A program made the position numbers and the translations under genes. 64,000 bases of DNA from assembly GCF_024228315.1 (NCBI RefSeq), contig NZ_CP100454.1, positions 1,488,001 to 1,552,000 on the forward strand. The letters run 5' to 3'. Under the pieces are notes generated by a model. It was not told the origin of the DNA, searched no databases, and saw only the letters and a program-made list of their open reading frames with translations. Positions 3,857 through 18,944 of this stretch are shown here, one piece after another (the stretch's first letter is position 1; each line of letters opens with the position of its first letter). This stretch comes from Halomarina pelagica. Its GTDB lineage: Archaea > Halobacteriota > Halobacteria > Halobacteriales > Haloarculaceae.

Positions 3857-5617
3857 ATGGATTCGGCGGCAGTGCGCGAACGCGCGGGCGAGTTGCCCCG
3901 CTCTCCCGGCGTCTACCTCTTTCTCGACGACCGCGAGGTCGTCCTCTACGTCGGGAAGGCGGTCGAGCTACGCGCCCGCGTGCGCTCCTACGCCGACCCG
4001 CGGAGCGCGCGCATCCGGCGGATGGTCGAGCGGGCGCGGGGGATCGACTTCGCCGTCACGGACACGGAGACGCAGGCGCTCCTGCTCGAGGCGAACCTCA
4101 TCAAGCGCCACCAGCCGCGGTACAACGTCCGCCTGAAGGACGACAAGTCCTACCCGCTCGTGCAGCTCACGGCCCACGAGTTCCCCCGCATCGAGGTGAC
4201 GCGCGACCCGGACGACTCCGCCACCGTCTACGGTCCATACACCGACAAGGGACGGGTGGACACCGTGGTGAAGGCGCTGCGCGAGACCTACGGCGTCCGG
4301 GGCTGTTCGGACCACAAGTTCGCCGGCCGGGACCGCCCCTGCCTGGACTACGACATCGGCCTCTGTACGGCCCCCTGTACCGGGGAGATCAGCCGCGAGG
4401 GGTACGTCGCGGACGTCGAGTCGGTGAAGCGCTTCTTCGAGGGGGAGGGGGGCGTGCTCGCCGACCCGATCCGCCGGGCGATGGAGGCGGCGAGCCAGGA
4501 CCGGCAGTTCGAGCGGGCGGCCCACCTGCGCGACCGCCTCGCCGCGGTCGAGGCGTTTCACGGGGGCGGCGGCGAGGCCGTCGTCGCCCGCGACCGGCGG
4601 ACGGTGGACGTGCTCGGGGTCGCCATCGAGGGCGAGCGGGCGACGGTCGCCCGCCTGCGCAGCGAGGACGGGAAGCTCGTCGACCGCGAGCGCCACACGC
4701 TCTCGACGCCCGGCGACGACGGCGAGACGGGAGGCGTCGCGGGCGTCCTCGCCGCGTTCGTCCCGCAGTACTACGCCGAGCGCGCGCTCCCCGACGAACT
4801 GCTCCTCCCGGAGCGACCCGAGGGCGAGGAGGTCGCCGCGTGGCTGGAGCGCGAGGGCGTCTCGCTGCGCGTCCCCGGCGCGGGGCGGGAGGCGACGCTG
4901 GTCGACCTCGCGCTGAAGAACGCCCGCCGCGGCGTGGGACGACGCGACGAGGCCGGTTCCCTCTCGGACGCGCTCGCGGCCGCCTACCCCGACCTCCCGG
5001 CCCGGATCGAGCGGATCGAGGGGTTCGACGTGAGCCACGCGCAGGGTCGCGCGGTCGTCGGCTCGAACGTCGCGTTCGTCGGCGGCTCGCCCGAGAAGGG
5101 CGACTACCGCCGGAAGAAGCTGGACGACCGCAACGACGACTACGCCAACATGCGCGATCTGGTGCGCTGGCGGGCGGACCGGGCGGTCGCGGGCCGCGAC
5201 GACCGCCCCGACCCGGACCTCCTGCTGATCGACGGCGGGGAGGGCCAGCTCGCGGCCGCTCGCGAGGCGCTGGCGGAGGCCGGGTGGGACGTGCCCGCCG
5301 TCGGCCTCGCCAAGCGCGAGGAGCGGGTGATCACGCCGGAGGGATCGTACGACTGGCCGGGAGACGCCCCCCACCTCCACCTGCTACAGCGGGTGCGCGA
5401 CGAAGCCCACCGGTTCGCGGTCCAGTACCACCAGACGCTGCGCGACGAGGTGCGGACCGTCCTCGACGACGTGCCCGGCGTCGGCCCGCGGACGCGGCGT
5501 CGGCTGCTCCGGCGGTTCGGCAGCGTGGAGAACGTGCGGGCCGCGACCGTCGAGGACCTGACGAGCGTCGAGGGAGTCGGCCCCAAGACCGCGGAGACGC
5601 TGCGGCGACGGCTCTAA
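3857..5617 (+). CDS. uvrC: UvrABC excinuclease subunit C
   Basis: Dual-incision nuclease subunit of bacterial-type nucleotide excision repair, 586 aa. The GIY-YIG domain that makes the 3' cut is at residues 12-95 (PGVYLF, then VLYVGKA). A UVR motif that binds UvrB is near 203-235 ([17 protein letters not shown]). The RNase H-like domain for the 5' cut has catalytic aspartates in GFDVSHAQG (about D391) and LLIDGGEG (about D458). Tandem HhH motifs close the protein ([27 protein letters not shown]). It is monocistronic here; uvrB lies at 19,152-21,209 on the other strand, and uvrA is not in the window. A full-length, normal family member. Confidence 0.97.
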
Positions 5618-5647
5618 TCGATCGGTTCGACGACGGGCGAGCCCCCG

Positions 5648-6595
5648 TCAGTCCGCGTCCGCCGTCCCGCGCTCGACGGGAAACGGCGAGAGGTGCGCCT
5701 CCACGTCCTCGCGTCGGTCCTCCAGCCAGGCGGGGAGCATCAGTTCGCGACCGAGGTCTGCGGGGTCCTCGTCGACGGCGAAGCCGGGGTCGTCCGTCGC
5801 GAGTTCGAACGCGCACCCGCCGGGTTCGCGGAAGTAGAGCGACCGGAAGTACTGTCGGTCGACGACGGGCGAGACGTTCGTCCCAAGCGCGGAGATGGCC
5901 TCGCCCAGTTCGGCCTGCTCGGCGGCCGACCCGACGCGGAAGGCGACGTGGTGGACCTGCCCCGGGCCGACCGGGGCGGGTCCGGACGCCTCGCGCCTTA
6001 CGACGTCGAGGACGGCCCCCACGCGGCCGACGCTCCGGTAACGCAGGCGGCCATCGTCCGTTCCGTCGAGCGCGTACCCCAGCGAGTCTTCCACGAACCG
6101 CGCCGTCGTCTCGGGGTCCTCCACGGCGACGGTGACGCCGAAGAGCCCGCGGACGGCCTCGGTCGTCGGGACGCTCCCGCCGGTCCACGGCTCGTCGCCG
6201 CCGTCGACCGCCACGAGGTCCACCGACAGGCCGTCGGGGTCGGTGAACGAGAGCACGGGCTGGCCGAATCGCTCTCGGCGCGCCGTCTCGACGCCGTGCG
6301 CGCCGAGGCGGTCGACCCAGTACCCGTGCGACTGCGGCGGGACGACGAACCCGACCGCCGTCACCTCGCCCGTCGCGCGCTGGTCCGTCTCGTCGCGGTC
6401 GGACCACGGCGAGAACGTCACGATCGTTCCGGGCGCGCCGGTCCCGTTACCGTAGTAGAGGTGGTGCGCGTACGGGTCGTCTGCGGCGACGGTCTGTTTC
6501 ACCAGGCGCAGGCCGAGCAGGTCCCGGTAGAAGGCGAGGTTTCGGTCGAGCGACTCGGTGAAGGCCGTCACGTGGTGGAGTCCGCGGATCGTCAT
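5648..6595 (-). CDS. Glyoxalase-fold (VOC) ring-cleaving dioxygenase-like protein
   Basis: About 315 aa starting at MTIRGLHHVTAF (ATG at 6595); the open frame extends upstream to 6649 but the core fold begins here. It contains two vicinal-oxygen-chelate modules. Module 1 opens with GLHHVTAF and ends LSFTDPDGLSVDLV. Module 2 starts RGLFGVTVAVEDPETTARFV and carries HHVAFRV and FREPGGCAFELATD. The His and Glu ligands (H in GLHHVT, H in QVHHVAF, E in CAFELA) fit a mononuclear metal site. The family includes MhqO/LinE-like hydroquinone dioxygenases. The aromatic substrate cannot be fixed from sequence. It is convergent with uvrC. Confidence 0.85.
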   Translation of the reverse strand: MTIRGLHHVTAFTESLDRNLAFYRDLLGLRLVKQTVAADDPYAHHLYYGNGTGAPGTIVTFSPWSDRDETDQRATGEVTAVGFVVPPQSHGYWVDRLGAHGVETARRERFGQPVLSFTDPDGLSVDLVAVDGGDEPWTGGSVPTTEAVRGLFGVTVAVEDPETTARFVEDSLGYALDGTDDGRLRYRSVGRVGAVLDVVRREASGPAPVGPGQVHHVAFRVGSAAEQAELGEAISALGTNVSPVVDRQYFRSLYFREPGGCAFELATDDPGFAVDEDPADLGRELMLPAWLEDRREDVEAHLSPFPVERGTADAD

Positions 6596-6662
6596 GGTGC
6601 GATGTCCGTCCGCCCTGCCCGACTCGCTCTCGCTCGACTCCCCGTCCACGCCGCGCGACCGA

Positions 6663-7001
6663 TCAGGGGACCTTGATGTAGCGGTATCCCGACTCCTGCA
6701 GCTTCGAGACGGTGCCGACGCCCGAGCTTCCGGGCTCGACGCCCGCGAGCAGGTCGTCGGTCGAGATCTCCCGCGTCCGCAGCGAGTTGCTGCAGGCGTA
6801 GAAGTCGACCGCCCCGTCGAGGTCGGCCACGGCGTCGGCGTGCGCCGACCCCTCGACGAGCAGCCACACGGCGTCGCCGTTGGCGACGAAGGCGACCGAC
6901 TCCAGGTCGACGGTGTCGTCGGCCAGGAGGTTGCGCGCGTTCGCCAGCGCGTGGCGCTGGTCGTCGTCCGACCCGCTCGAACAGTGCAAGACGACGTTCA
7001 T
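6663..7001 (-). CDS. DsrE/DsrF-like sulfur-relay family protein
   Basis: About 112 aa from ATG 7001 (MNVVLHCSSG); the frame is open to 7022 but the family begins at the beta strand MNVVLHC. The DsrE fold is visible: ANARNLL helix, SVAFVANGDAVWLLV, then a strand-Cys motif DFYACSNSLR where the cysteine lies at the usual active position, then a GVGTVSKLQESGYRYIKVP tail. DsrE-family proteins carry sulfur between enzymes or bind small thiols. Archaeal single-domain members have mostly unknown roles. It stands alone here. Confidence 0.82.
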   Translation of the reverse strand: MNVVLHCSSGSDDDQRHALANARNLLADDTVDLESVAFVANGDAVWLLVEGSAHADAVADLDGAVDFYACSNSLRTREISTDDLLAGVEPGSSGVGTVSKLQESGYRYIKVP

Positions 7002-7084
7002 CGATACTAGACACGTTGTCACGGGGCATAAGCTAGGGGTACTCCGTCACGTTACGTGGCGTCCCGAGGTTCCCCTCGAAACCG

Positions 7085-7129
7085 CACGCCGTCCGCCGTT
7101 CGCCGTCCGCCGTTCGCCGTCCGCCGTCT
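7085..7129. repeat. 14-bp tandem repeat, about three copies
   Basis: The unit CGCCGTCCGCCGTT is repeated head to tail about three times, immediately upstream of the SPFH protein gene and its promoter region. There is no coding sequence across it. It may vary in copy number between strains. Confidence 0.75.
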
Positions 7130-7196
7130 ATCGTCGCTCGGCTCGACACGTAACCTGTCCGAAACGTTTACCCCCGTCTCCGTCGAACCTCCGCGC

Positions 7197-8366
7197 ATGA
7201 GTCACCGCGGCGTGTTCTACGAACTCGGGCGGGCCACGGCGCGGTTGCACGCCGTCGAGGGGCCCAGCCCGAGCGGTGCCGGCCGCCCCGCGCTCGGGGC
7301 CGCGGCGCTCGTCGCGCTGGGGGTCGCGTACGTCGCGGGGGTCGTCAGCTTCGCCGTCTTCGCGGTCGGTCTCCTCCTGCTCCTCGCCGTCGCGACGGTC
7401 GTGAGCGCGGTCGAACTCGTCCAGGCGTACGAGAGGCGCACCCTCACGGTCTTCGGCGCGTACCGGGGGGTGCTCGATCCGGGGCTGCACGTCGTCCCGC
7501 CGTTCGTCTCGCGCACCTACCGGTTCGACGTGCGGACGCAGACGCTGGACGTGCCGACCCAGGAGGCCATCACGCGCGACAACTCGCCCGTCACGGCCGA
7601 CGCCGTCCTCTACGTCCGCGTCGTCGATCCCGAGCGGGCGTTCCTCGGCGTCGACGACTACCGCCGGGCGACGCTCTACCTCGCCCAGACCGCCCTCCGG
7701 GCGGTGCTCGGCGACATGGACCTCGACGACACGCTCTCGCGCCGCGAGGCGATCAACGCGCGCATCCACGACCAGCTCGACGAGCCGACCGACGAGTGGG
7801 GCGTGCGCGTCGAGGCGGTCGAGGTGCGCGAGGTGACGCCCAGTCGGGGCGTCGTCGACGCGATGGAACAGCAGAGCGCCGCCGAGCGCCGCCGCCGCGC
7901 CATGATCCTCGAAGCGCAGGGGAGACGGGTCAGCGCGGTCGAGCGCGCCGAGGGCGAGCGGCGGGCGAGCGTCGTCCGCGCGCAGGGGGAGAAGCGGGCG
8001 CGGATCCTGGAGGCGCAGGGCGACGCCGTTTCGACCGTCCTCCGCGCCCGGGCGGCGGAGTCGATGGGCGAGCGCGCGATCGTCGAGCGGGGCATGGAGA
8101 CGCTCGCGAGCGTCGGACGGTCGCCCTCCACCACGATCGTCCTCCCGCAGGAACTCACCTCGCTGCTCGGGCGCTACGGCAGGCACCTCTCCGGGAGCGA
8201 CGCGCGCGAAGCCGCGCCCCTGCTCGATGGCCGGGCGTTCGACGCCGAGACGCGCGAACTGCTCGGGCTCGACGACTTCGAGGGGGAGTTCGACGCCGAC
8301 GCGGTCGCCATCGAGATCGAGGACGCGTCCGAGGGAATGGGGGACGAGGAGGCCGTCGAGCGCTGA
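7197..8366 (+). CDS. SPFH/band-7 (stomatin/flotillin-like) membrane protein
   Basis: About 389 aa from ATG 7197. Two adjacent hydrophobic segments occupy residues 32-75. The SPFH domain runs from about 80 to 250 (VQAYERRTLTVFGAY, DNSPVTADAVLYVRVVDPERA, RAVLGDMDLDDTLSRREAIN). A long heptad-like coiled coil follows (EQQSAAERRRRAMILEAQGRR, then repeated AEGERRA / AQGEKRA units), and then a shorter acidic tail. Stomatin-like proteins oligomerise on the membrane and scaffold partners or proteases such as NfeD. No nfeD gene is next to it. The start is chosen because the upstream frame is Arg/Pro-rich repeat sequence. Confidence 0.92.
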   Translation: MSHRGVFYELGRATARLHAVEGPSPSGAGRPALGAAALVALGVAYVAGVVSFAVFAVGLLLLLAVATVVSAVELVQAYERRTLTVFGAYRGVLDPGLHVVPPFVSRTYRFDVRTQTLDVPTQEAITRDNSPVTADAVLYVRVVDPERAFLGVDDYRRATLYLAQTALRAVLGDMDLDDTLSRREAINARIHDQLDEPTDEWGVRVEAVEVREVTPSRGVVDAMEQQSAAERRRRAMILEAQGRRVSAVERAEGERRASVVRAQGEKRARILEAQGDAVSTVLRARAAESMGERAIVERGMETLASVGRSPSTTIVLPQELTSLLGRYGRHLSGSDAREAAPLLDGRAFDAETRELLGLDDFEGEFDADAVAIEIEDASEGMGDEEAVER

Positions 8367-8367
8367 G

Positions 8368-8871
8368 CTATCCGGACTCTCCCTCCCCCCGCCCGCGACC
8401 ACGCCGTTCCTCGAGTGCTCGATCCCTGAGCGCGCGCTGGTCGTCGGTCGGGCAGTCGAGCGCGGGCACCGCGGTCGGTCGCTCCTCCCCGTCGAGCGCG
8501 ACGAACGTGAAGAACGAGGTGGCGGTGTCCCGCCGAACGTCCGCGGCGGGACGTTCGGCGCGGACCGTGACGGCGACGTCGACGCTCGTCTCGCCGGTGT
8601 CGAACGCGTAGCCCGAGACGGTGACGATGTCGCCGAGGGCGATGTGTGCGAGGAAGTCGACGTGATCCATCGACGCCGTGACGACCTGGCGACGGGAGAA
8701 CCGCCGCGCGGCGATCGCCCCGCAGATGTCCATCCAGTGGAGGACGGAGCCGCCGAGCGCCCGGCCGAGGTTGTTCGTGTCGTTCGGCATCAGGATCTCG
8801 CTCAGTTCGGTGTAGGAGTCCGCGAGCGTCGCCGATCCGACGGGTTCGTGCTCGAGGTCGGCGCTCACCAT
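8368..8871 (-). CDS. Acyl-CoA thioesterase, hotdog fold
   Basis: 167 aa. Typical BACH/YciA-like sequence: MPNDTNNLGRALGGSVLHWMD followed by CGAIAARRFSRRQVVTASMDHVDFLAHIALGDIVTVSGYAFDTGETSVDV. The Asn-Leu-Gly-x-x-Leu-Gly-Gly segment caps the hotdog helix and the HVDFLAHI strand lies at the active site. It hydrolyses acyl-CoA thioesters; chain-length preference is unknown. Its start overlaps the end of nrdB by 7 bp, so it is the last gene of the nrdA-nrdB transcript. This coupling looks accidental in function but is structurally clear. Confidence 0.88.
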   Translation of the reverse strand: MVSADLEHEPVGSATLADSYTELSEILMPNDTNNLGRALGGSVLHWMDICGAIAARRFSRRQVVTASMDHVDFLAHIALGDIVTVSGYAFDTGETSVDVAVTVRAERPAADVRRDTATSFFTFVALDGEERPTAVPALDCPTDDQRALRDRALEERRGRGRGEGESG

Positions 8872-9857
8872 TCGAGCGAGCCCCCGCTGCGATACTCGGT
8901 GACTTTCGTCTCGAAGAAGTTCTTCTCCTTGTTGAGGTCCACCGCCTCGGACATCCACGGGAAGGGGTTTTCGGTCCCGAACTGCGGGGGGAGATCGAGC
9001 TGGCGCAGGCGGCGGTCCGCGACGTACTCGACGTACTCGGAGAACTGCCCCGGTCCTATCCCGAGGATCTCGGGCGGACAGGCGTCCCGGGCGTAGACCT
9101 TCTCGAGATCGACGGCCTCCGCGACGAGGTCCGCGACCTCCCGACCGAACTCGTCGGTCCACGCGTCGGGGTGTTCGGCGCGGATACCGTCGATGAGGTC
9201 CACGCCGAAGTTGACGTGCAGCGACTCGTCGCGCATGATGTACTCGAACTGCTCGCCGATGCCCACCATCTTCCCCCGGCGCTTCAGCGCGAGCATCGCG
9301 GCGAAACCGGCGTAGAAGAACAGTCCCTCCATGACGACGTAGAAGCCGACGAGGTCGCGCAGGAAGGACCGCACGTCGGCGGTCGTCTCGATCTCGAAGT
9401 CGTCGCGGTCGATGGCGCGCGTGAGGTCGACCACGAACTCGTCCTTCTCCGCGATGGAGGGAACGCGGTCGTACATCCCATAGAGGTAGTCGGGGTCGAA
9501 CCCGAGGGTGTCACAGCAGTAGATGAACGTGTCCGTGTGGATCGCCTCCTCGTAGGCCTGCCGGAGGAGGTACTGTCGGCACTCGGGGGCGGTGACGTGG
9601 TCGTAGACGGCGAGGACGAGGTTGTTGGCCGTCAGCGACTCGGCGGTCGAGAAGAACCCGAGGTTCCACTCGACGAGTCGCCGCTCGGCGTCGCTCAGGT
9701 CGTCGCCGGTCCACTGGGAGACGTCGCCCTGCATCGGTATCTCCTCGGGGATCCAGTTGTTGTCGACGCCCGCGCGGTAGTACTCGCGGGCCCAGTCGTA
9801 TTCGATGGGGAGGATCTTGTTCGGGTCGTGCTGGCTGTCGGTGTCGAGTAGTGGCAT
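8865..9857 (-). CDS. nrdB: Ribonucleoside-diphosphate reductase small subunit, class Ic-like
   Basis: 330-aa R2 subunit that houses the dinuclear metal cofactor of aerobic ribonucleotide reductase. Metal ligands are visible as E73 (FFSTAESL), E104 and H107 (YEEAIHTDTF), E177 (VMEGLFF), and E211 and H214 (RDESLHVNFG). Two features set it apart from E. coli NrdB. The first ligand is Glu, not Asp, and the residue at the tyrosyl-radical position is Phe (F111). All seven positions are offset by exactly 16 from the Chlamydia trachomatis numbering (E89, E120, H123, F127, E193, E227, H230). So it should use an Mn/Fe cofactor without a tyrosyl radical. It is 33 bp downstream of nrdA. Confidence 0.95.
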   Translation of the reverse strand: MPLLDTDSQHDPNKILPIEYDWAREYYRAGVDNNWIPEEIPMQGDVSQWTGDDLSDAERRLVEWNLGFFSTAESLTANNLVLAVYDHVTAPECRQYLLRQAYEEAIHTDTFIYCCDTLGFDPDYLYGMYDRVPSIAEKDEFVVDLTRAIDRDDFEIETTADVRSFLRDLVGFYVVMEGLFFYAGFAAMLALKRRGKMVGIGEQFEYIMRDESLHVNFGVDLIDGIRAEHPDAWTDEFGREVADLVAEAVDLEKVYARDACPPEILGIGPGQFSEYVEYVADRRLRQLDLPPQFGTENPFPWMSEAVDLNKEKNFFETKVTEYRSGGSLEW

Positions 9858-9890
9858 CGGTTCGAGGTCGTGTGGGGTCTGCGTGCGGTG

Positions 9891-12314
9891 CTACTGGCAG
9901 GACTCGCAGGTGGGGTCCTCGACGCTCGGGAGGTCGGCCGACTCGGGCGCGTCGGCCCCCGAGTCGGAGCCGTCGTCTCCGCCGTCGCGGAACTGCGTGT
10001 CGTCGTACTCGTCCATGTCGAGGGTCGTCTTCTCGATCTGGCTCGCCCCGAGAGTGCGGAGGTAGTAGGTGGTCTTCAGTCCCAGTTCCCACGCCGTGCG
10101 GTAGACGTCGGCGAGGCGTCGGCCGTCGGTGCTCGGGAAGAAGACGTTGTGCGACTGGCTCTGGTCGATCCAGATCCCCCGCCTGGCGGTGAGTCGCAGG
10201 AGGTGGCGCGGGTCGATCTCGAACGCGCCGCGGTGGCGCTCGCGGATCTCGGCGGGGACGTCGTCGATCTCCTGGACGGACCCGTCGCGGTACTTGAGCC
10301 GATCGACCATCTCCGCGTCCCACAGCCCCGCCGCCTTCAGGTCCGCGACGAGGTGCTCGTTGACGATCGTGAACTCCCCGGACATGTTCGACTTGACGTA
10401 CAGGTTCGAGTAGATCGGTTCGACGGAGGGGGTCGTCCCAGCGATGGTCGAGATGGTCGCGGTGGGCGCGACCGCCGTCACGTTCGAGTTGCGCATCCCG
10501 TGGGACGCGACGTGCTCGCGCACCGCGTCCCAGTCGAGGCGCTCCTCGACCGAGAGGGGGATCTCGCGGCCGCGTTCCTCCGCCAGGAGCGCGACGGTGT
10601 CCTGGGGGAGGACGCCGCGGTCCCACTTCGACCCCTCGAAGGACTCGTACGCGCCGCGTTCTCGTGCCAGCCGCGAGGAGCCGAGGATCGCGTGGTAGGC
10701 GACCACCTCCCCCCACTCGTCGGCCAGATCGGCGGCGCGCTCCGAGGCCATCGGTACGCCGAGTTCCAGCAGCGCCTCGTGGAACCCCATCACGCCAAGT
10801 CCGACCGGGCGGTGGCGCAGGTTCGACCGCTCCGCGTTCTCGCTCGGGTAGAAGTTGAGATCCACCACGTCGTCGAGCATCCGCGTCGCCGTGGCGACGG
10901 TGTCCGCGACGCGCTCGCGGTCCAACCTATCGTCCCCGACGTGTCGGGCGAGGTTCACCGACCCGAGGTTACAGACGGCGGTCTCGTCCTCGCTCGTGTT
11001 GAGCGTGATCTCCGTGCAGAGGTTCGAGGAGTTGACGACGCCCGCGTGGTCCTGCGGCGAGCGGACGTTGCAGGGATCCTTGAACGTGAGCCACGGGTGG
11101 CCAGTCTCGAACAGTCGGGTGAGCATCGTGCGCCAGAGGTCCTCGGCGTCGACGCGCTCGTACAGATCGAGATCGCCCGCCTCGGCGCGGCGCTCGTACT
11201 CCTCGTAGCGCGCTTCGAACTCGCGCCCGTACAGTCCGTGGAGGTCCGGGACCTCGTCCGGGGAGAACAGCGTCCACTCGCCCCCCTCCGCGACGCGCTT
11301 CACGAACAGGTCAGGCACCCAGGCGGCGGTGTTCATGTCGTGGGTGCGTCTGCGTTCGTCGCCGGTGTTGCGCCGGAGGTCGAGGAAGGCGGGGAAGTCG
11401 AGGTGCCAGCACGCGAGGTAGGCGCAGGCCGCCCCCCGGCGCTTGCCGGAGCGGTTGATCGCCGCCGTCACGTCGTTCGAGATCTTGAGGAAGGGGACGA
11501 CGCCGGTGGACTCGACGCCGGTCGACTCGATGCGCGCGCCCGCGGCCCGGACGTTCGTCCAGTCGGTACCGATCCCGCCGGACCACTTAGAGAGGCGGGC
11601 GTGCTCGCCGTACCTCTCGAAGATGCCGTCGAGGTCGTCCGCGACGGTCGTGAGGTAACACGAGGAGAGTTGTGGGTGGGTCGTTCCGGCGTGAAAGAGC
11701 GTGGGCGTCGAGGGGACGAACAACAGACGCGACATCGCGTCGTAGAACTCGACGGCCCGCGCCCCCCGGTCGTTCTCCTGTAACGCGAGTCCCATCGCCA
11801 CGCGCATCCAGAACGCCTGCGGGAGTTCGATCGGTTCGTCCTCCACGCGGAGGAAGTACCGCTGGACGAGCGTCTCGATCGCGACGTACCCCAGTTCGTC
11901 GTCGCGCTCGGGACGGAGGGCCCCGGACAGGGCGTCGAGATCGTACTCCGCCATCCGGTCGTCCAGGCGTCCGGCGTCGAGGCCCCGCTCGATTCCCTCC
12001 CGGAAGGCCCGCCGATAGGCGTCGTCGCGCGCCTCGTCCGCGAGCGTCGGGTCGAAGAACGAGCGCTCGTAGCGTCGGCGAGCGACCCGGGCGGCGAGTC
12101 GTTCGTACGCCGGATCGCGCTCGATCCGGGCGGTCGCGGCGTCCACGACGGCGTCGTAGAGTTCGGCCTCGTCGGCCGTCGCGTAGACGTTTCGCTCGAC
12201 CGCCGCCGCGAGTTCCGCGACGGCGTCGGCGTCGAGTACGTCCTCGTGACCTGTGCGCGCCCGTTCGACGAGCGAACGGGCGGTCTCTCGCTGTGAGGTG
12301 GTGCTCTCGCTCAT
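9891..12314 (-). CDS. nrdA: Ribonucleoside-diphosphate reductase large subunit
   Basis: 807-aa R1 subunit that reduces NDPs to dNDPs. The redox cysteine pair is C219 (HPQLSSCYL) and C448 (AVCNLGSVNL). The active-site loop NLCTEI gives N431, thiyl C433 and E435. The Tyr-Tyr dyad of the radical path sits in KTTYYLRTLGASQ near the end, and the shuttle pair CESC is at 803-806. The N-terminus enters the R1 helical domain at about residue 40 (YATADEAELYDAVVDAATARIERDPAY). I see no ATP-cone in front of it, so dATP feedback may be missing or different. It is the first gene of the nrdA-nrdB-thioesterase operon. Confidence 0.96.
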   Translation of the reverse strand: MSESTTSQRETARSLVERARTGHEDVLDADAVAELAAAVERNVYATADEAELYDAVVDAATARIERDPAYERLAARVARRRYERSFFDPTLADEARDDAYRRAFREGIERGLDAGRLDDRMAEYDLDALSGALRPERDDELGYVAIETLVQRYFLRVEDEPIELPQAFWMRVAMGLALQENDRGARAVEFYDAMSRLLFVPSTPTLFHAGTTHPQLSSCYLTTVADDLDGIFERYGEHARLSKWSGGIGTDWTNVRAAGARIESTGVESTGVVPFLKISNDVTAAINRSGKRRGAACAYLACWHLDFPAFLDLRRNTGDERRRTHDMNTAAWVPDLFVKRVAEGGEWTLFSPDEVPDLHGLYGREFEARYEEYERRAEAGDLDLYERVDAEDLWRTMLTRLFETGHPWLTFKDPCNVRSPQDHAGVVNSSNLCTEITLNTSEDETAVCNLGSVNLARHVGDDRLDRERVADTVATATRMLDDVVDLNFYPSENAERSNLRHRPVGLGVMGFHEALLELGVPMASERAADLADEWGEVVAYHAILGSSRLARERGAYESFEGSKWDRGVLPQDTVALLAEERGREIPLSVEERLDWDAVREHVASHGMRNSNVTAVAPTATISTIAGTTPSVEPIYSNLYVKSNMSGEFTIVNEHLVADLKAAGLWDAEMVDRLKYRDGSVQEIDDVPAEIRERHRGAFEIDPRHLLRLTARRGIWIDQSQSHNVFFPSTDGRRLADVYRTAWELGLKTTYYLRTLGASQIEKTTLDMDEYDDTQFRDGGDDGSDSGADAPESADLPSVEDPTCESCQ

Positions 12315-12468: not shown

Positions 12469-13311
12469 TCAGGGATCGTCCGACGGATTCGGGGCGGGCA
12501 GGCCGCCGGGCAGGAAGCCGGCGTCGAGCCCGGCGACCCGACAGAGGTCCCACAGCGTCGCCAGGTTGCTCGTGACCGTCGGGACGTCCCGGGCGAGGCG
12601 CTCGACCGCCGCGAGCGTCGGGTAGTTGGTGCAGGAGACGAACAGCGCGTCCGCGTCCGACGCGGCCGCGAGGACCGACGCCGCCTGCTCGCGGGCGTCG
12701 TCGGGGGTGAGCCGACCGATGTCCGCGTTGCGCTCGATCCCGAGCCCGTCGAGGTGCCGCACGTCGAAGCCGGCGTCCTCCAGGTACTCGCGCTCCCGTT
12801 CGTTCAGCGCGTCGGTGTACGGCGTCGCCACGGCGACGGTGGTCGCGTCGAGCGCGTCGAGCGCGCGGCGGACCGAGAGCGCCGTCGCCACGGCCGGCGC
12901 GCCGGTCGCCTCCCGGAGGCGGCGCTCCAGATCGGCGTCGAAGCCGTGTCCGTGGATGAGACTGCCCGTGGTGCAGGCGTAGGCGACCGCGTCCACGTCC
13001 GCGTGGGCCAGCCGCTCCGCCGCCGCGACGGCGTCGGCCGCCATCGCGTCGAGCGCCTCGACGGTCACCTCGACGAGCGGCATCCGGGCGGCGTGGATCG
13101 ACGCCCGGGGCGGCGTCCACGCGGCGAACTCCGGTTCGACCGTCGTGTTCGAGGAGGGGACGACGACGCCGAGGCGGAGGCGGTCGCCGCGGGCGGTCGG
13201 GTCACCACGAGCGGTCGAGTCGGCGGCGGCGGTCGGGTCGGCGGCGGTCGGGTCGGCGGCGGTCGAGTCGGCGGCGGCCGAACCGTCGCGTTCGGGGGGT
13301 GGTCCCGTCAT
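12469..13311 (-). CDS. Asp/Glu/hydantoin racemase-fold enzyme (maleate isomerase / AMDase-like)
   Basis: 280 aa. After a 40-residue low-complexity leader built from Ala-Asp-Ser/Pro-Thr repeats, the fold begins LRLGVVVPSSNTTVEPEF. The two catalytic cysteines of the superfamily are visible: YACTTGSLIHG and FVSCTNYPTLAAVE. The SSNTTVEPE entry and the Cys contexts are nearest to maleate cis-trans isomerases and arylmalonate decarboxylases. It is the last gene of the transporter-hyuA-hyuB operon, 11 bp after hyuB, so it probably isomerises or racemises the substrate or product of HyuAB. The leader is encoded by a tandem repeat (13,195-13,280), so its length may vary. Confidence 0.85.
   Translation of the reverse strand: MTGPPPERDGSAAADSTAADPTAADPTAAADSTARGDPTARGDRLRLGVVVPSSNTTVEPEFAAWTPPRASIHAARMPLVEVTVEALDAMAADAVAAAERLAHADVDAVAYACTTGSLIHGHGFDADLERRLREATGAPAVATALSVRRALDALDATTVAVATPYTDALNEREREYLEDAGFDVRHLDGLGIERNADIGRLTPDDAREQAASVLAAASDADALFVSCTNYPTLAAVERLARDVPTVTSNLATLWDLCRVAGLDAGFLPGGLPAPNPSDDP
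13195..13280. repeat. Intragenic tandem repeat in the racemase-like gene
   Basis: Variants of GTCGGGTCGGCGGCG recur about five times and encode the Ala-Asp-Ser/Pro-Thr-rich N-terminal leader of the racemase-like protein on the minus strand. The units keep the reading frame. Such a stretch is prone to slippage and the folded domain starts only after it. Confidence 0.75.
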
Positions 13312-13322
13312 CCCGTCACCCG

Positions 13323-14969
13323 TCACCTCGTCACCTTCCCGTCGGCGCGGTCGCGTTCGCGGGCCTCGGGATCGCGCTCGTCGGGGTCGCCGTGGCCGCC
13401 GCCGCCGGGCGTGAGCACGGTGACCGTCGTGCCGGCGTCCACGTCGACGGAGGTCTTGGCGGCGACCGGCTCGCCGTCGATCAGGTTGCGCCCGAGCGCG
13501 CCGTCCTCGCCGCCCGCGAGCCCCGCCGGCGGGGTGCGTCGGCGCTCGGTGAGCAGCGAGACGGTGGCGTCCGCCTCGACGGTCACGGATCGTTCGAGAC
13601 CGAGGCCGCCGCGGAACCGGCCGTCGCCGCCGCTGTCCGGGCGGAAGCTGTACCGCTCGACGCGGAGCGGATAGGCGGCCTCGAGCGCCTCGACGGGCGT
13701 GTTGAGCGTGTTGGTCATGCCGACCTGGACGCCGTCCATGCCGTCCTTCGACGGGCGCGCGCCGAAGCCGCCCGCGACGGTCTCGTAGTAGGTGAACGAC
13801 CCCGTCCGGCTCCCGACGATGAGGTTGTTCATCGTGCCCTGTCCCCCCGCCGGGACGCGGTCGGGGACGGCCTCCGCGAAGGCCGCGAGCACGACGTCCG
13901 TCACCCGCTGGCTCGTCTCGACGTTCCCCCCGACGACCGCCGCGGGCGGGCGCGGGTCGAGCAGCGACCCCTCCGGAACGCGGACGGTCACCGGATCGTA
14001 ACACCCCTGGTTCGGCGGGATCTCCGGGTCGGTGACGCAGCGGACGACGAAGTAGACGGCGCTCTTGGCGACCGCCAGCGGCGCGTTCACGTTCCCCGGC
14101 ACCTGGTCCGCCGTCCCCTCGAAGTCGACGACGATCCGGTCGCCGTCGATCGTGACGGTCGCCTCGATCGGGATCGACACGTCCGCCGGATCGGCCCCCG
14201 AAGCGTGCTCGAGGACGCCGTCGCCCTCCAGCGCGTCGCTCGCGGCGTACGTGCCGTCGGGGAGCGCCTCGATCTCGGCCGCGATGCGCTGGCGGGAGTA
14301 GTCGACGACCGCGTCGAACGCCGACGGCACGAGGTCCGGGTGCTCCTCGAGCAACTCGCCCAGGCGCGCCTCGGCGCGCTCGTTGGCCGCGATCTGCGCC
14401 CGGAGGTCCGCCCGGCGCTCGTCGGGCGTCCGGACGTTGGCGAGGAGGATCGACCGCACGTCCTCGTTCGGCTCACCCTCGGCGACGAGGCGGACCGGCG
14501 GGAGGCGCAACCCCTCCTGGTAGATCTCGCGGGAGCCGGCGGGCATGCTCCCGGGTGTCGACCCCCCGACGTCGGCGTGGTGGGCGCGGGAGACGGCGTA
14601 CCCGAGGATCTCGCCGTCGGGGGCGAGCGGCGAGACGAGCGTCACGTCCGGCAGGTGCGTCCCGCCGTCGAAGGGGTCGTTGAGGACGAACACGTCGCCC
14701 GGCCGCGGGTCGCGCTCGCGCACCGCGTCCACCGCCTCCGGCATCGCCCCGAGGTGGACCGGGATGTGCTCGGCCTGCGCGACCATCCGCCCCTCGGCGT
14801 CGAAGAGGGCGGTCGAGCAGTCCTGGCGCTCCTTGATGTTCGGGGAATAGGAACCGTTGATGAGCACCTGGCCCATCTCCTCCGCGACGCTCTCGAGCTG
14901 GTTGCGGAGGATCTCCAGCGTGACGGCGTCGATCTCCGTCCGGGGGCTGGAACCCGGGGCGTCGCTCAC
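13323..14969 (-). CDS. hyuB: Hydantoinase B / 5-oxoprolinase beta-type subunit
   Basis: 548 aa from the GTG at 14969, which overlaps the hyuA stop codon (GTGA). The HyuB family entry is clear: [45 protein letters not shown], then [45 protein letters not shown] and the glycine-rich tail [13 protein letters not shown]. With HyuA it forms an ATP-dependent hydrolase acting on cyclic amides such as 5-oxoproline, hydantoins or N-carbamoyl compounds. The actual substrate is not visible from sequence. The frame stays open to 15023 but that part is hyuA shadow. Confidence 0.93.
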
Positions 14970-17011
14970 GACGCCACCTCCGTGAGCACCACCGTCCCGT
15001 CCGGTTCGACGACGCCCTCCCACGACGGCGGGACGACGACCGTGCTCTCCTCCCCCTCGAGGACGGCCGGCCCCGACAGCGCCTCGCCCGGCGGCAGGCG
15101 CTCGCGGTCGTAGATCGCCGTCTCGCGCGGACCGTCGCCGAAGTGCGCCTCGCGCTCGCCGATCAGCGCGTCGCCGCGCGCCTCGTACGCCACGTCGACG
15201 GGCGGGCGCTCGACGGTCGCCTCGGTCCGGACGTTGACGAGGTCGACCGCCTCGTCCATCCGGTAGCCGTAGGTCGACTCGTGGGCGGCGTGGAACCGTT
15301 CCTCGACGGTCCGGGGATCGAACGGCCGGTCGGCGGCGACGGTGAGTTCGAAGCTCTGGCCGGCGTAACGGAGGTCCGCGCGGCGGGTCACGAGGGCCTC
15401 GGCGGCGTCGCTACACTCCTCGCGGACGGCGGCCTCGAGTTCCCCGTAGGTCGCCTCGACCGCGTCCGCGTCGATCGCGGACAGCGACTCGCGGTGGGTC
15501 CTGACGGCGTCGTGTTTCTCGTCGGCCGCGAGCAGGCCGTACGCCGAGAGGACGCCGCAGGCCCGCGGGACGACGACGGTGCCGATGCCGAGTCCGGACG
15601 CGAGCGCGGCGGCGTGCATCGGTCCCGCGCCGCCGAAGGCGACGAGGCCGAACCCGCGGGGGTCGTGGCCGCGTTCGAGCGTCACCGCCCGGATCGCGCG
15701 GCTCATCGTCGCGTTGGCGACGCGGTACACCCCGCGGGCGGCCGCGATAGGCCCGTCAAGGCCCGTCTCGTCCGCGAGGTCGGCGAGCGCGCCGCGGGCG
15801 GCGTCGACGTCGACGGAGAGTTCGCCGCCGAGGCTCGTGCTCGCGCCGACGTAGCCGAGGACGACGTTCGCGTCCGTGACGGTCGGATCGGTCCCGCCAA
15901 GGCCGTAGCAGACGGGCCCCGGTTCCGCGCCAGCGGACTCGGGGCCGACGCGGAGCGCGCCCCCGGCGTCGACCCAGCCCTTGCTCCCGCCGCCCGCGCC
16001 GACGGTCGTCACGTCCACCATCGGGGTCCTGATCGGGCGGCCGCCGATCGCCGCATCGGTGGTTCGCTCGATCTCCCCATCGCGCACGAGGCTCACGTCG
16101 CTCGACGTGCCGCCCATGTCGAAGGTGACGAGACCAGTGAGGTCCCGAGCGCCGCGCGAGTCGTCCGCGTCGGACGCCGCTCCACCGTCGCGCCCGCCGA
16201 CGCTGGCCAGCGCCCCGACGACGCCGGCCGCGGGACCCGACATGCACGTGCGGACGGCGTGCTCTCTGACCGTTTCGGCGTCGGTGATCCCGCCGTTCGC
16301 CTGCATCACGGTCGGCTCGGGGACACCCGCCTCGCTCGCGCGCTCGACCAGCCGACCGACGTAGGCGTCGATGGCGGGCGTGACGTAGGCGTCCGCGACG
16401 GTCGTCGAGGCACGCTCGTACTCGCGGAACTCGGCGAGCACCTCGTGGGAGACGGAGACCGGAACGTCGAGTTCCGATTCGAGCGCCTCGGCGACGGCGG
16501 CCTCGTTCTCGGGATGGGCGTAGGCGTGCAGCAGGCAGACCGCGACGGCCTCCGCGCCCGACGCCTCGATCTCCCCGGCCACCTCGCGGACCGCCTCGGG
16601 GTCGACCTCCCGCTCCACGCCGTCGACGGTCGCCCGCTCGTCCACCGCGAAGCGCCGACGGCGCGGCACCAGCGGCGCGGGCTTCTCGGCGTCGAGGTCG
16701 TACAGCGACGGGCGGTCCTGCCGGCCGATCTCGAGCACGTCGCGGAAGCCCGCGGTGGTGACCAGCGCCGTCCGCGCGCCGTTCCCCTCGAGGAGCGCGT
16801 TGACCGAGACGGTCATCGCGTGGGTGAAGTCGTCGATCGCGTCGGGCGCGATCCCGGCGCGCTCGCAGGCCTTCTCGATGCCCGCGAGGACGCCGACGCT
16901 CTGATCGGCCGTGCTCGGCACCTTCGCGGTGACGAGGTCGTCCCCGCGGAGGAGCACGACGTCCGTGAAGGTCCCGCCGACGTCGACGCCGACGGCCGTC
17001 TCCGCTGCCAC
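14966..17011 (-). CDS. hyuA: Hydantoinase A / 5-oxoprolinase alpha-type subunit
   Basis: 681 aa from GTG 17011, placed directly after the transporter stop codon with no gap. The ATPase fold of the ASKHA type is seen in VGVDVGGTFTDVVL at the N-terminus, then DFTHAMTVSVNALLEGNGARTALVTTAGFRD, TFDMGGTSSDVSLV, TTVGAGGGSKGWVD and FGGAGPMHAAALA. These are standard HyuA motifs for ATP-dependent ring opening. It partners HyuB, the next gene. The operon order transporter-hyuA-hyuB-racemase resembles salvage of a cyclic amino-acid derivative. Confidence 0.94.
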   Translation of the reverse strand: MAAETAVGVDVGGTFTDVVLLRGDDLVTAKVPSTADQSVGVLAGIEKACERAGIAPDAIDDFTHAMTVSVNALLEGNGARTALVTTAGFRDVLEIGRQDRPSLYDLDAEKPAPLVPRRRRFAVDERATVDGVEREVDPEAVREVAGEIEASGAEAVAVCLLHAYAHPENEAAVAEALESELDVPVSVSHEVLAEFREYERASTTVADAYVTPAIDAYVGRLVERASEAGVPEPTVMQANGGITDAETVREHAVRTCMSGPAAGVVGALASVGGRDGGAASDADDSRGARDLTGLVTFDMGGTSSDVSLVRDGEIERTTDAAIGGRPIRTPMVDVTTVGAGGGSKGWVDAGGALRVGPESAGAEPGPVCYGLGGTDPTVTDANVVLGYVGASTSLGGELSVDVDAARGALADLADETGLDGPIAAARGVYRVANATMSRAIRAVTLERGHDPRGFGLVAFGGAGPMHAAALASGLGIGTVVVPRACGVLSAYGLLAADEKHDAVRTHRESLSAIDADAVEATYGELEAAVREECSDAAEALVTRRADLRYAGQSFELTVAADRPFDPRTVEERFHAAHESTYGYRMDEAVDLVNVRTEATVERPPVDVAYEARGDALIGEREAHFGDGPRETAIYDRERLPPGEALSGPAVLEGEESTVVVPPSWEGVVEPDGTVVLTEVAS

Positions 17012-18229
17012 TCAGATCACCCCGAGGAGCGTGAGGAGGCTCCGAACGCCGAGCCAGACGACGATCAGCGTGACGACCGCGCCGAGGGCGTTCTGGACCG
17101 TCGAGTTGACGTAACGCCCGAGGGTCGCGTGGTCGTTCATCACCAGGATGAGGAAGACCGCGACGATCGGGAGGAGGATGCCGTTCGCGACCTGGGCGAA
17201 CAGGATCGCCTCGACGGGGCTGTAGTCGAGCGCCGAGAAGAGGATCCCGACCCCGAGGATGGACATCCAGACCGCCCGGAACCGCGTGGACGTGAGGTCG
17301 GCGTCCCAGCCGAGCGCCCCGGCGGTGGCGTACGCGCCCGCGAGCGGGGCCGTCGTCGCGCTGGTGAAGCCCGCGGCGAACAGGCCGACGCTGAAGAACA
17401 CCTTCGCGTACGTCCCCGCGACGGGTTCGAGCTGTTCGGCCATCCGCCCGACGTCCTCGATCCGCGTGCCGGCCGGGAACACCGCCGCCGCGGTCACGAG
17501 GATCGAGAGCGTGATCAGCCCACCGACGACGATCGAGAGGACCGTGTCCGTCCGGCACGCGCCCAGGTCCTCCGGCCCGTCCCACCGCTCCTGGACGCTG
17601 CTCGCGTGCAGGAAGAGGTTGTATCCGACGACCGTCGTCCCGATGAGTCCGGTGATGAGAAAGAGCGACCCCTCCGGAACCGACGGGACGAACCCCGCCG
17701 CCAGCGCGCCGAGGTCCGGCCCGATGAGGATCGCGTCGACGAGGAAGGAGACGCCCATGATCGCGACGAGCGCGACCAGGGCGCGCTCGATCAGTTCGTA
17801 CCGACCCGTCCACAGCAGCGCGGCGGCGGCGAGGCCGATGATCGGTCCCCACACCGACGCGCTCACGCCGGTCACGGTCGCGAGGCCCGCCGCGCCGCCG
17901 AGGATGTTCCCCGTCTCGTAGGCGGCGGTCCCGACGCCGATGGCGCTCACCACGAGCGCGACGCTCGCGTACTGGAGCGCGGGCGAGTCGAACCGCCCGC
18001 GCAGCGCCTCGCCCAGCCCCTCCCGGGAGACGATCCCCAGGCGGGCGCTCATCTCCTGGAGGACGATCGTCGCCAGGACCGAAAACGCGATCGTCCAGAT
18101 CAGGGCGTAGCCGAACCGCGCGCCCGTCACGCTGGCCGTCGTCACCGTCCCCGGACCGATGAACGCCGCCGCGACCATCGCACCGGGACCGATCGCCCGG
18201 AGCCGTTCGATCAGCTTCACTGCGACCAC
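17012..18229 (-). CDS. NRAMP-fold transporter lacking the canonical metal ligands
   Basis: 405 aa, about 11 membrane segments with the LeuT/NRAMP fold. The TM1 stretch GPGAMVAAAFIGPGTVTTAS aligns with the NRAMP sequence around D-P-G-N, but Asp is Gly25 and Asn is Thr28. In TM6, IGTTVVGYNLFLH aligns with the A-T-x-M-P-H-N motif: Met is Val201, Pro is Gly202 and His is Tyr203. The residues that bind Mn2+ or Fe2+ are therefore gone. It opens the hyuA-hyuB-racemase operon. Known precedent is the NRAMP homologue YcsG next to 5-oxoprolinase genes in Bacillus. I infer an organic substrate, not a metal. GTG at 18229 or 18220 could be the start. Confidence 0.88.
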   Translation of the reverse strand: MVAVKLIERLRAIGPGAMVAAAFIGPGTVTTASVTGARFGYALIWTIAFSVLATIVLQEMSARLGIVSREGLGEALRGRFDSPALQYASVALVVSAIGVGTAAYETGNILGGAAGLATVTGVSASVWGPIIGLAAAALLWTGRYELIERALVALVAIMGVSFLVDAILIGPDLGALAAGFVPSVPEGSLFLITGLIGTTVVGYNLFLHASSVQERWDGPEDLGACRTDTVLSIVVGGLITLSILVTAAAVFPAGTRIEDVGRMAEQLEPVAGTYAKVFFSVGLFAAGFTSATTAPLAGAYATAGALGWDADLTSTRFRAVWMSILGVGILFSALDYSPVEAILFAQVANGILLPIVAVFLILVMNDHATLGRYVNSTVQNALGAVVTLIVVWLGVRSLLTLLGVI

Positions 18230-18380
18230 CGCTCGTGTGTCATGCTCTCACGGACCTATCTCGGGCGGAAAAGGGTTGTTATGAGCCGTGCGCACCGAGC
18301 GCACGGGCGGTACGAGCGAGTGTGACTACGGTACGATCAGGTGTGAGGGTGGTACACTCGGGGAAGGACGATGCCGGCGG

Positions 18381-18944
18381 CTACGCCGCGTCCGCATCCG
18401 GCCGTCGCTCGGTGACGAGCACCTTCGAGACGCTCTCCTCGATCTCGAGTTCGAACGGGAGGTCGCGGACGCTCCGCTCGATGAAGCGGGTCATGAACCA
18501 GCGGAGCGAGGCCGACGGGAAGACGACGTGGTAGGTGTCGCCCTCGGTGGCGCGCACGGAGAGGAAGCCGCAGAACGAGAGCCACTCCAGCAGTTCGCCC
18601 ACGTCGTCGAAGCGCCCGGCGTACTCGCGGGCGTGATAGTCTGCGACGGTGTCGGCGGCGTCGAGGAACGCGGGATCCGGCGTCCCCGTCTCGTCCTCGA
18701 CGTAGTCGAGGAAGCAGTGCAGGAAGTCCACGTCGAGGAGGACGTGCTCGCCGCCCGAGAGCATCCGGTGGTAGGCCGCGAGGTTCGGCCCGGCGTCGTT
18801 GCTGGCCGCCTCGAAGTTCGCGGCGTAGAAGGTCAGCGCCCGTCGGATGACCTCGCTCCGTCCCTCCCCCGTCCGGTCGACGAGGTCGGCGAGCGCCGCG
18901 GCCGCCTCCTCGTCGAGCGAGACCGTCACCCGTTCGGTCGGCAT
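18381..18944 (-). CDS. Ribbon-helix-helix transcriptional regulator with C-terminal domain
   Basis: 187 aa. Residues 1-45 are a CopG/RHH DNA-binding module: MPTERVTVSLDEEAAAALADLV, then GRSEVIRRALTFYAANF. A haloarchaea-type helical sensor domain follows (HVLLDVDFLHCFLDYVEDE, DTVADYHAREYAGRFDDVGELLEWLSFCGFLSV, FPSASLRWFMTRFIERSVRDLP). The lone Cys residues do not form a clear metal site. Proteins of this layout are usual in haloarchaea and probably bind operators as dimers. The target is unknown; no operator-like palindrome is obvious next to it. Confidence 0.85.
   Translation of the reverse strand: MPTERVTVSLDEEAAAALADLVDRTGEGRSEVIRRALTFYAANFEAASNDAGPNLAAYHRMLSGGEHVLLDVDFLHCFLDYVEDETGTPDPAFLDAADTVADYHAREYAGRFDDVGELLEWLSFCGFLSVRATEGDTYHVVFPSASLRWFMTRFIERSVRDLPFELEIEESVSKVLVTERRPDADAA

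Follow-up and report, generated by a model that had tools for sequence, protein, structure and literature searches.

The NRAMP-related transporter encoded in a 64,000-nucleotide stretch of the Halomarina pelagica genome (contig NZ_CP100454.1, positions 1,488,001 to 1,552,000 of the forward strand; the whole stretch is called the window, and positions are counted from its first letter) probably imports 5-oxoproline (pyroglutamate). On the evidence of sequence comparison and gene context a probability of roughly 0.6 was assigned to this substrate; the wider claim, import of some cyclic amide, is more probable. 5-Oxoproline import is the best explanation because one carrier devoid of metal ligands has been switched twice between unrelated lactam-opening enzymes.

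Layout of the operon

The features of the locus are collected in Table 1. On the minus strand a ribbon-helix-helix gene is followed, after 151 bp, by the transporter gene, hyuA, hyuB and a racemase-like gene. The transporter gene ends with a stop codon at 17014–17012 and hyuA begins at 17011, confirming the gapless junction described in an earlier note on this DNA; the zero gap recurs in many orthologous loci. The two following junctions (hyuA/hyuB and hyuB/racemase-like gene) are GTGA overlaps, the second of which presupposes that the racemase-like gene starts at GTG 13326 and not at ATG 13311.

Table 1. Features of the locus, by position in the window
Feature	Position	Strand	Remarks
Ribbon-helix-helix (CopG-type) regulator gene	18381..18944	-	187 aa; PF01402; upstream of the transporter gene, same strand
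Degenerate copy of the tandem 10-bp repeat TTCAYAC-N3, putative operator	18309..18325	-	Same place as the repeat of the orthologues
Promoter-like element AACAACCCTTTT	18269..18280	-	About 40 bp ahead of the transporter start; conserved
NRAMP-related transporter gene	17012..18229	-	405 aa; GTG start; TM1 GPGT, TM6 VGYN; Pfam Nramp 327 bits (profile search, cut-off 29.8)
hyuA, ATP-binding subunit of a hydantoinase/oxoprolinase-type ATP-dependent lactamase	14966..17011	-	681 aa; PF05378, PF01968
hyuB, metal-site subunit	13323..14969	-	548 aa; GTG start overlaps the hyuA stop (GTGA); PF02538, 691 bits
Gene of the Asp/Glu-racemase / maleate-isomerase / arylmalonate-decarboxylase superfamily	12469..13326	-	PF17645

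The transporter gene had been said to head the operon. The transcript plausibly begins with it, because the ribbon-helix-helix gene lies 151 bp upstream and the gap contains a conserved promoter-like element; the presence of this same-strand gene qualifies the claim. The element AACAACCCTTTT or one similar to it was found, with the pattern used, in 11/33 orthologous upstream regions (0.3 in shuffled sequences). A strict TTCAYAC-N3 tandem repeat occurred in 18 of the 33 haloarchaeal upstream regions (shuffles: mean 0.01, maximum 1); the copy of H. pelagica itself, in the gap 18231–18380, fails the strict pattern. Since repeats are expected in the operator of a ribbon-helix-helix protein and the regulator gene adjoins (it lies immediately before the transporter gene in 27/32 orthologous loci), the tandem repeat is probably the operator of this protein.

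Fold and lost metal ligands of the transporter

Profile match (Table 1) and LeuT fold place the protein in the NRAMP superfamily; against the NCBIfam MntH profile it scored only 188 bits (cut-off 430). In the AlphaFold2 model (pLDDT 91) the helices of TM1 and TM6 are broken at residues ∼24–26 and ∼201, which are the two motif sites. The best PDB matches of the model were all NRAMPs (DraNramp, TM-score 0.86; EleNRMT, 0.84; the YcsG model 9a52, 0.80), followed by amino-acid carriers, AdiC and LAT1 among them, and by the hydantoin carrier Mhp1.

The metal of DraNramp is bound by D56, N59, M230 and two carbonyls, Q378 contributing via a water, and the D56A substitution abolishes Mn2+ and Cd2+ transport (PMC10185341). 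In an alignment with canonical proteins, TM1 of the transporter reads G-P-G-T (residues 25–28) where the canonical sequence is DPGN, and TM6 reads V-V-G-Y-N (residues 200–204) where it is VMPH(N). G25, T28 and V201 thus stand in the places of D56, N59 and M230, in agreement with the earlier statement that the Asp, the first Asn and the Met are absent. Two further ligand losses had been missed, namely H232 to Y203 and the TM3 glutamate E134 to N108 (DraNramp numbers first); the TM10 glutamine is retained (Q378 = Q346). Among 51 aligned relatives G25-P26-G27 and Y203-N204 are invariant and T28 is kept in at least 90%, so that the motif change is no sequencing accident. The loss of metal ligands is common to the whole clade of GPGT proteins.

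With canonical Nramp/MntH/SLC11 proteins (DraNramp, BfraNramp) the transporter shares the fold, the TM1 and TM6 breaks and the TM10 glutamine, but DPGN, MPH and the TM3 glutamate are all replaced; these motifs and the tree rule out a canonical Mn2+/Fe2+ MntH. EleNRMT, an NRAMP-related Mg2+ transporter, also lacks the Asn and Met ligands. NRMTs nevertheless retain the TM1 aspartate (DxxG; PMC8806188) where the transporter has glycine. Identity with this group was rejected, since GxxT in TM1 and TxxV in TM6 replace the DxxG-TxxA/T signature (PMC8806188) and the NRMTs form a separate branch.

The third comparison is with YcsG/MntG of B. subtilis and PxpT of C. glutamicum, which like the transporter belong to the Pfam family, have the fold, lack the canonical metal ligands and are tied to 5-oxoprolinase; GPG in TM1 and GGY/VGY in TM6 are also common to both. 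They differ in TM1, where YcsG-like proteins have GPGF-TQTATF and the transporter has GPGT-VTTAS without the GPGF-TQT signature, and in the partner enzyme, which is PxpABC for YcsG/PxpT and HyuAB, a candidate 5-oxoprolinase, in the window. The phylogeny that had been proposed as a check separated the GPGT clade (support 100/97) from metal NRAMPs. The stand-ins for the YcsG group, pxp-operon homologues from Klebsiella (L168) and L. plantarum (L169), fell outside the clade in the best tree, on a long branch elsewhere, and a topology joining them to it was not rejected by the AU test (p-AU 0.32). In a preprint, Ray, Berry and Gaudet delineated 'G-motif' groups of Nramp-related proteins that lack the residues for metal and protons, with MntG/YcsG in G-motif 3 (PMC12873925). 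The transporter would, by its sequence, fall among the Nramp-related groups of that study, in the available part of which all groups other than NRMT-like and G-motif 3 are called entirely uncharacterised and no mention of HyuAB linkage was found. A literature search returned no paper combining NRAMP, hydantoinase and operon.

The host has two other full-length NRAMP genes (contig C1, 439459–440643 and 3267819–3268982; L071 and L072), also without DPGN. Their TM1 motifs are GSGS, a type also present in other haloarchaea, and GPAT. The host genome yielded no canonical MntH.

Partner enzymes and gene neighbourhoods

HyuA contains the ATP motifs DVGGTFTD, DMGGTSSD and GxxPGP (as GAEPGP), and HyuB conserves the Asp-His-Asp-His metal tetrad of CapB, a site described for caprolactamase (PMC8453981); ATP motifs and metal site together assign the pair to the HyuAB class of ATP-dependent lactamases (oxoprolinase/hydantoinase). 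The HyuA/HyuB architecture, the ATP motifs and the tetrad are shared with OPLAH and with the archaeal two-subunit candidates Saci_0368/0369 and MJ0963/0964. Caprolactamase CapAB was rejected, the scores being 463 and 265 bits against NCBIfam cut-offs of 1000 and the vicinal Cys-Cys of CapB being absent at the aligned place; acetophenone carboxylase scored below its cut-offs.

In the HyuB tree the operon protein groups (93/98) with two bacterial fused HyuA-HyuB proteins (L109 and L112, called OPLAH-like by architecture and context), apart from N-methylhydantoinase and caprolactamase. The C-terminal halves of the fused proteins are 36–40% identical to operon HyuBs and 25–28% identical to CapB, N-methylhydantoinase and the other HyuBs of the host, and the blocks NIKER, HIPVHLG, RAHHADxGG, VGGNVExSQR, QGTMNN and MTNT are common to operon HyuB and the OPLAH-like proteins. 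Pairs of separate HyuA and HyuB subunits are the 5-oxoprolinase candidates of Sulfolobus, extracts of which have the ATP-dependent activity (PMC6507225). The grouping with OPLAH-like proteins and the Sulfolobus candidates favour a role of the operon HyuAB as a 5-oxoprolinase. HyuA of the operon type is far commoner than the transporter (∼100/145 haloarchaeal genomes), and in 20 further haloarchaeal loci taken from HyuA matches no conserved neighbour gave a clue to the substrate. One HyuA orthologue (G025, contig C5, 179368–181161), with an in-frame TGA and the N-terminus missing from the match, is a possible pseudogene.

The racemase-like protein scores below the NCBIfam AMDase cut-off. Both catalytic-type cysteines (YACTTGS and SCTNYPT) are present in 24/24 copies compared, which by analogy makes an isomerase or racemase likelier than a decarboxylase.

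Transporter orthologues (at least 54% identity; the next matches fall to ∼35%) were found in 39 of 145 haloarchaeal genomes, and in 37 of these 39 hyuAB follows directly. A Haloferax gibbonsii protein (WP_004978267.1) shares 77% identity with the transporter. One of the two exceptions (L062) has only the regulator beside the transporter. The racemase-like gene lies downstream in 23/32 loci, made up of 22 with hyuAB (22/30 of the HyuAB-linked loci) and L061. The latter locus (genome G077, 5037–10525) has a divergent orthologue with racemase-like, creatininase-family, M20 allantoate/N-carbamoyl amidohydrolase and arginase-family genes and no HyuAB, a possible creatinine/hydantoin-like pathway. 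In Haloterrigena sp. H1 (L102, 6622–9026) the transporter gene is in two pieces ∼1.2 kb apart, as if interrupted.

The host has a PxpA gene with PxpB/PxpC-like genes on another contig (C2; L201, 8992–12281), with an amidase gene near and no adjoining NRAMP gene. PxpA was found in 18/145 haloarchaeal genomes and coincides with the transporter in eight (∼4.8 expected); substitution of HyuAB for a missing PxpABC is unsupported, as PxpA is distributed independently of the transporter.

A scan of ∼85,000 genomes found the GPGT clade in Bacteroidota, Bacillota, Pseudomonadota, Actinomycetota and other groups. The loci analysed were those of the best 80 of 586 relatives, a set rich in Flavobacteriia, so that the linkage figures are no survey estimate. 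Among these, PxpA, PxpB and/or PxpC adjoined the transporter gene or lay within a few kilobases in 49/62 bacterial loci, a trait of YcsG/PxpT which the orthologues thus share; two more of the 62 (L109 and L112) have a 1252-residue fused HyuA-HyuB of OPLAH architecture encoded 22 bp downstream of the transporter. The absence of a neighbourhood link to oxoprolinases had been named beforehand as grounds for refutation; such a link was found in haloarchaea (HyuAB) and bacteria (PxpABC and the fused proteins) alike.

Within the GPGT clade the haloarchaea form a group (100/99) that is sister (94/97) to Natroniella acetigena, the gene of which lies in a YcsI/PxpABC operon, and the OPLAH-linked L109 and L112 nest among PxpABC-linked Bacteroidota. 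From these two placements it follows that the transporter has changed partner at least two times, exchanging ATP-dependent ring-opening enzymes of two unrelated families.

Other contexts were also seen. In place of these partners, four Bacillota loci (L131, L144, L154 and L164) have an arginase-family ureohydrolase gene upstream of the transporter, with a YheO-like PAS regulator in at least two of the four, hinting at a different nitrogen compound as the substrate of this subclade. In SAR324 (L103, 5712–10146) the orthologue stands beside genes for a GntR-like regulator, a carbon-nitrogen hydrolase, a cupin and DUF2848, without PxpABC or HyuAB.

Proposed function and alternatives

The reading of the transporter as a carrier of a cyclic amide, put forward in the earlier note, is supported at the level of sequence by the link to oxoprolinase-type genes, near-universal in haloarchaea, and the clade-wide loss of metal ligands. 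Its precedent is real: YcsG homologues do stand beside 5-oxoprolinase genes, and C. glutamicum needs PxpT, a protein with 50% identity to YcsG, to grow on 5-oxoproline and can do without it on glucose (PMC13274462).

On this reading the transporter would be a secondary carrier with the LeuT fold, one of the 'G-motif' kind of NRAMP relatives, bringing in 5-oxoproline. The backbone amides of GPGT and the conserved polar residues T28, N108, T198, Y203, N204, H208 and Q346 may hold the carboxylate and the lactam of the substrate, by analogy with the GxG segments of amino-acid carriers of the same fold. Judged by homology and context, ATP-binding HyuA and HyuB, with its metal-dependent hydrolysis, would then spend ATP to hydrolyse the lactam to glutamate. 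The two-cysteine racemase-like protein might isomerise or racemise the substrate or the product (a D-form, for instance), and the operon is probably under the control of the ribbon-helix-helix protein, acting at the upstream tandem repeats. Other 5-oxoprolinases may exist beside HyuAB, or HyuAB may not act on 5-oxoproline at all, because the host has a PxpABC locus and PxpA and the transporter are not mutually exclusive. The substrate may also vary within the clade, given the creatininase- and M20-carbamoylase-like genes of L061 and the arginase-family gene of some Bacillota.

It is unlikely, though less so than the other alternatives, that the imported compound is a different cyclic amide, such as a 5-substituted or N-methyl hydantoin, a cyclic imide or a creatinine-like compound, the ring of which HyuAB would open, with the racemase-like enzyme inverting the substrate in the manner of hydantoin racemase. 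Such a substrate would suit the frequent presence of the racemase-like gene with both its cysteines in HyuAB-linked loci, the L061 orthologue among racemase-like, creatininase-family and M20 hydantoinase/carbamoylase-family genes, and a host that has separate PxpABC for 5-oxoproline. The operon HyuB, however, groups with OPLAH-like fused proteins and not with N-methylhydantoinase, the PxpABC-linked bacterial orthologues argue for 5-oxoproline, and the usual haloarchaeal operon has no adjoining carbamoylase gene.

The strongest rival in kind is delivery of metal to metalloenzymes, since HyuB and most of the alternative partners need metals: the protein would still carry Mn2+, Zn2+ or Mg2+, supplying HyuB and, in bacteria, Pxp and other amidohydrolases. 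Overexpression of YcsG, an NRAMP relative from a pxp operon, raised cellular Mn2+, for which the protein was renamed MntG, and its operon is bound by MntR (PMC10448178); EleNRMT moves Mg2+ and Mn2+ through a restructured site (PMC8806188); the authors of the PxpT study left metal transport possible (PMC13274462). The Asp-His-Asp-His site of HyuB, the arginase, creatininase and M20 partners, which are metalloenzymes too, and the retention of Q346 are consistent with this. Against these points, the TM1 aspartate, kept even in Mg2+ NRMTs, is invariantly glycine in the clade, the counterparts of N59, M230, H232 and E134 are also lost, no conserved acidic residue remains at the site, and PxpT is needed on 5-oxoproline and not on glucose (PMC13274462). 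We regard metal transport as improbable, marginally more so than another cyclic amide.

That the carrier exports the product or swaps substrate for product (5-oxoproline/glutamate exchange, for example) is very improbable: the direction of transport is not readable from sequence and the structural matches include the LeuT-fold exchangers AdiC and LAT1, but nothing here points to exchange, and the need for PxpT during growth on external 5-oxoproline (PMC13274462) implies import.

Returning to 5-oxoproline import, a broader and quite tentative proposal is that the NRAMP fold has been turned to lactams in more than one lineage, in YcsG/PxpT and separately in the GPGT clade, and that the haloarchaeal members feed an undescribed catabolic NRAMP-HyuA-HyuB-isomerase operon under a ribbon-helix-helix regulator, the substrate of which might be racemic or another cyclic amide and not just L-5-oxoproline.

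Automatic annotation assigns the label 'Nramp family divalent metal transporter' to every gene of this kind, and so to a clade, present in archaea and several bacterial phyla, that has lost the metal site. Organic substrates for proteins of the NRAMP fold are a matter of live dispute, with PxpT presented as a 5-oxoproline carrier and MntG as a Mn2+ importer, and one carrier paired with two unrelated lactam-opening enzymes is a clean test system for this dispute. The GPGT clade would show how the metal-carrier and amino-acid-carrier folds convert into each other.
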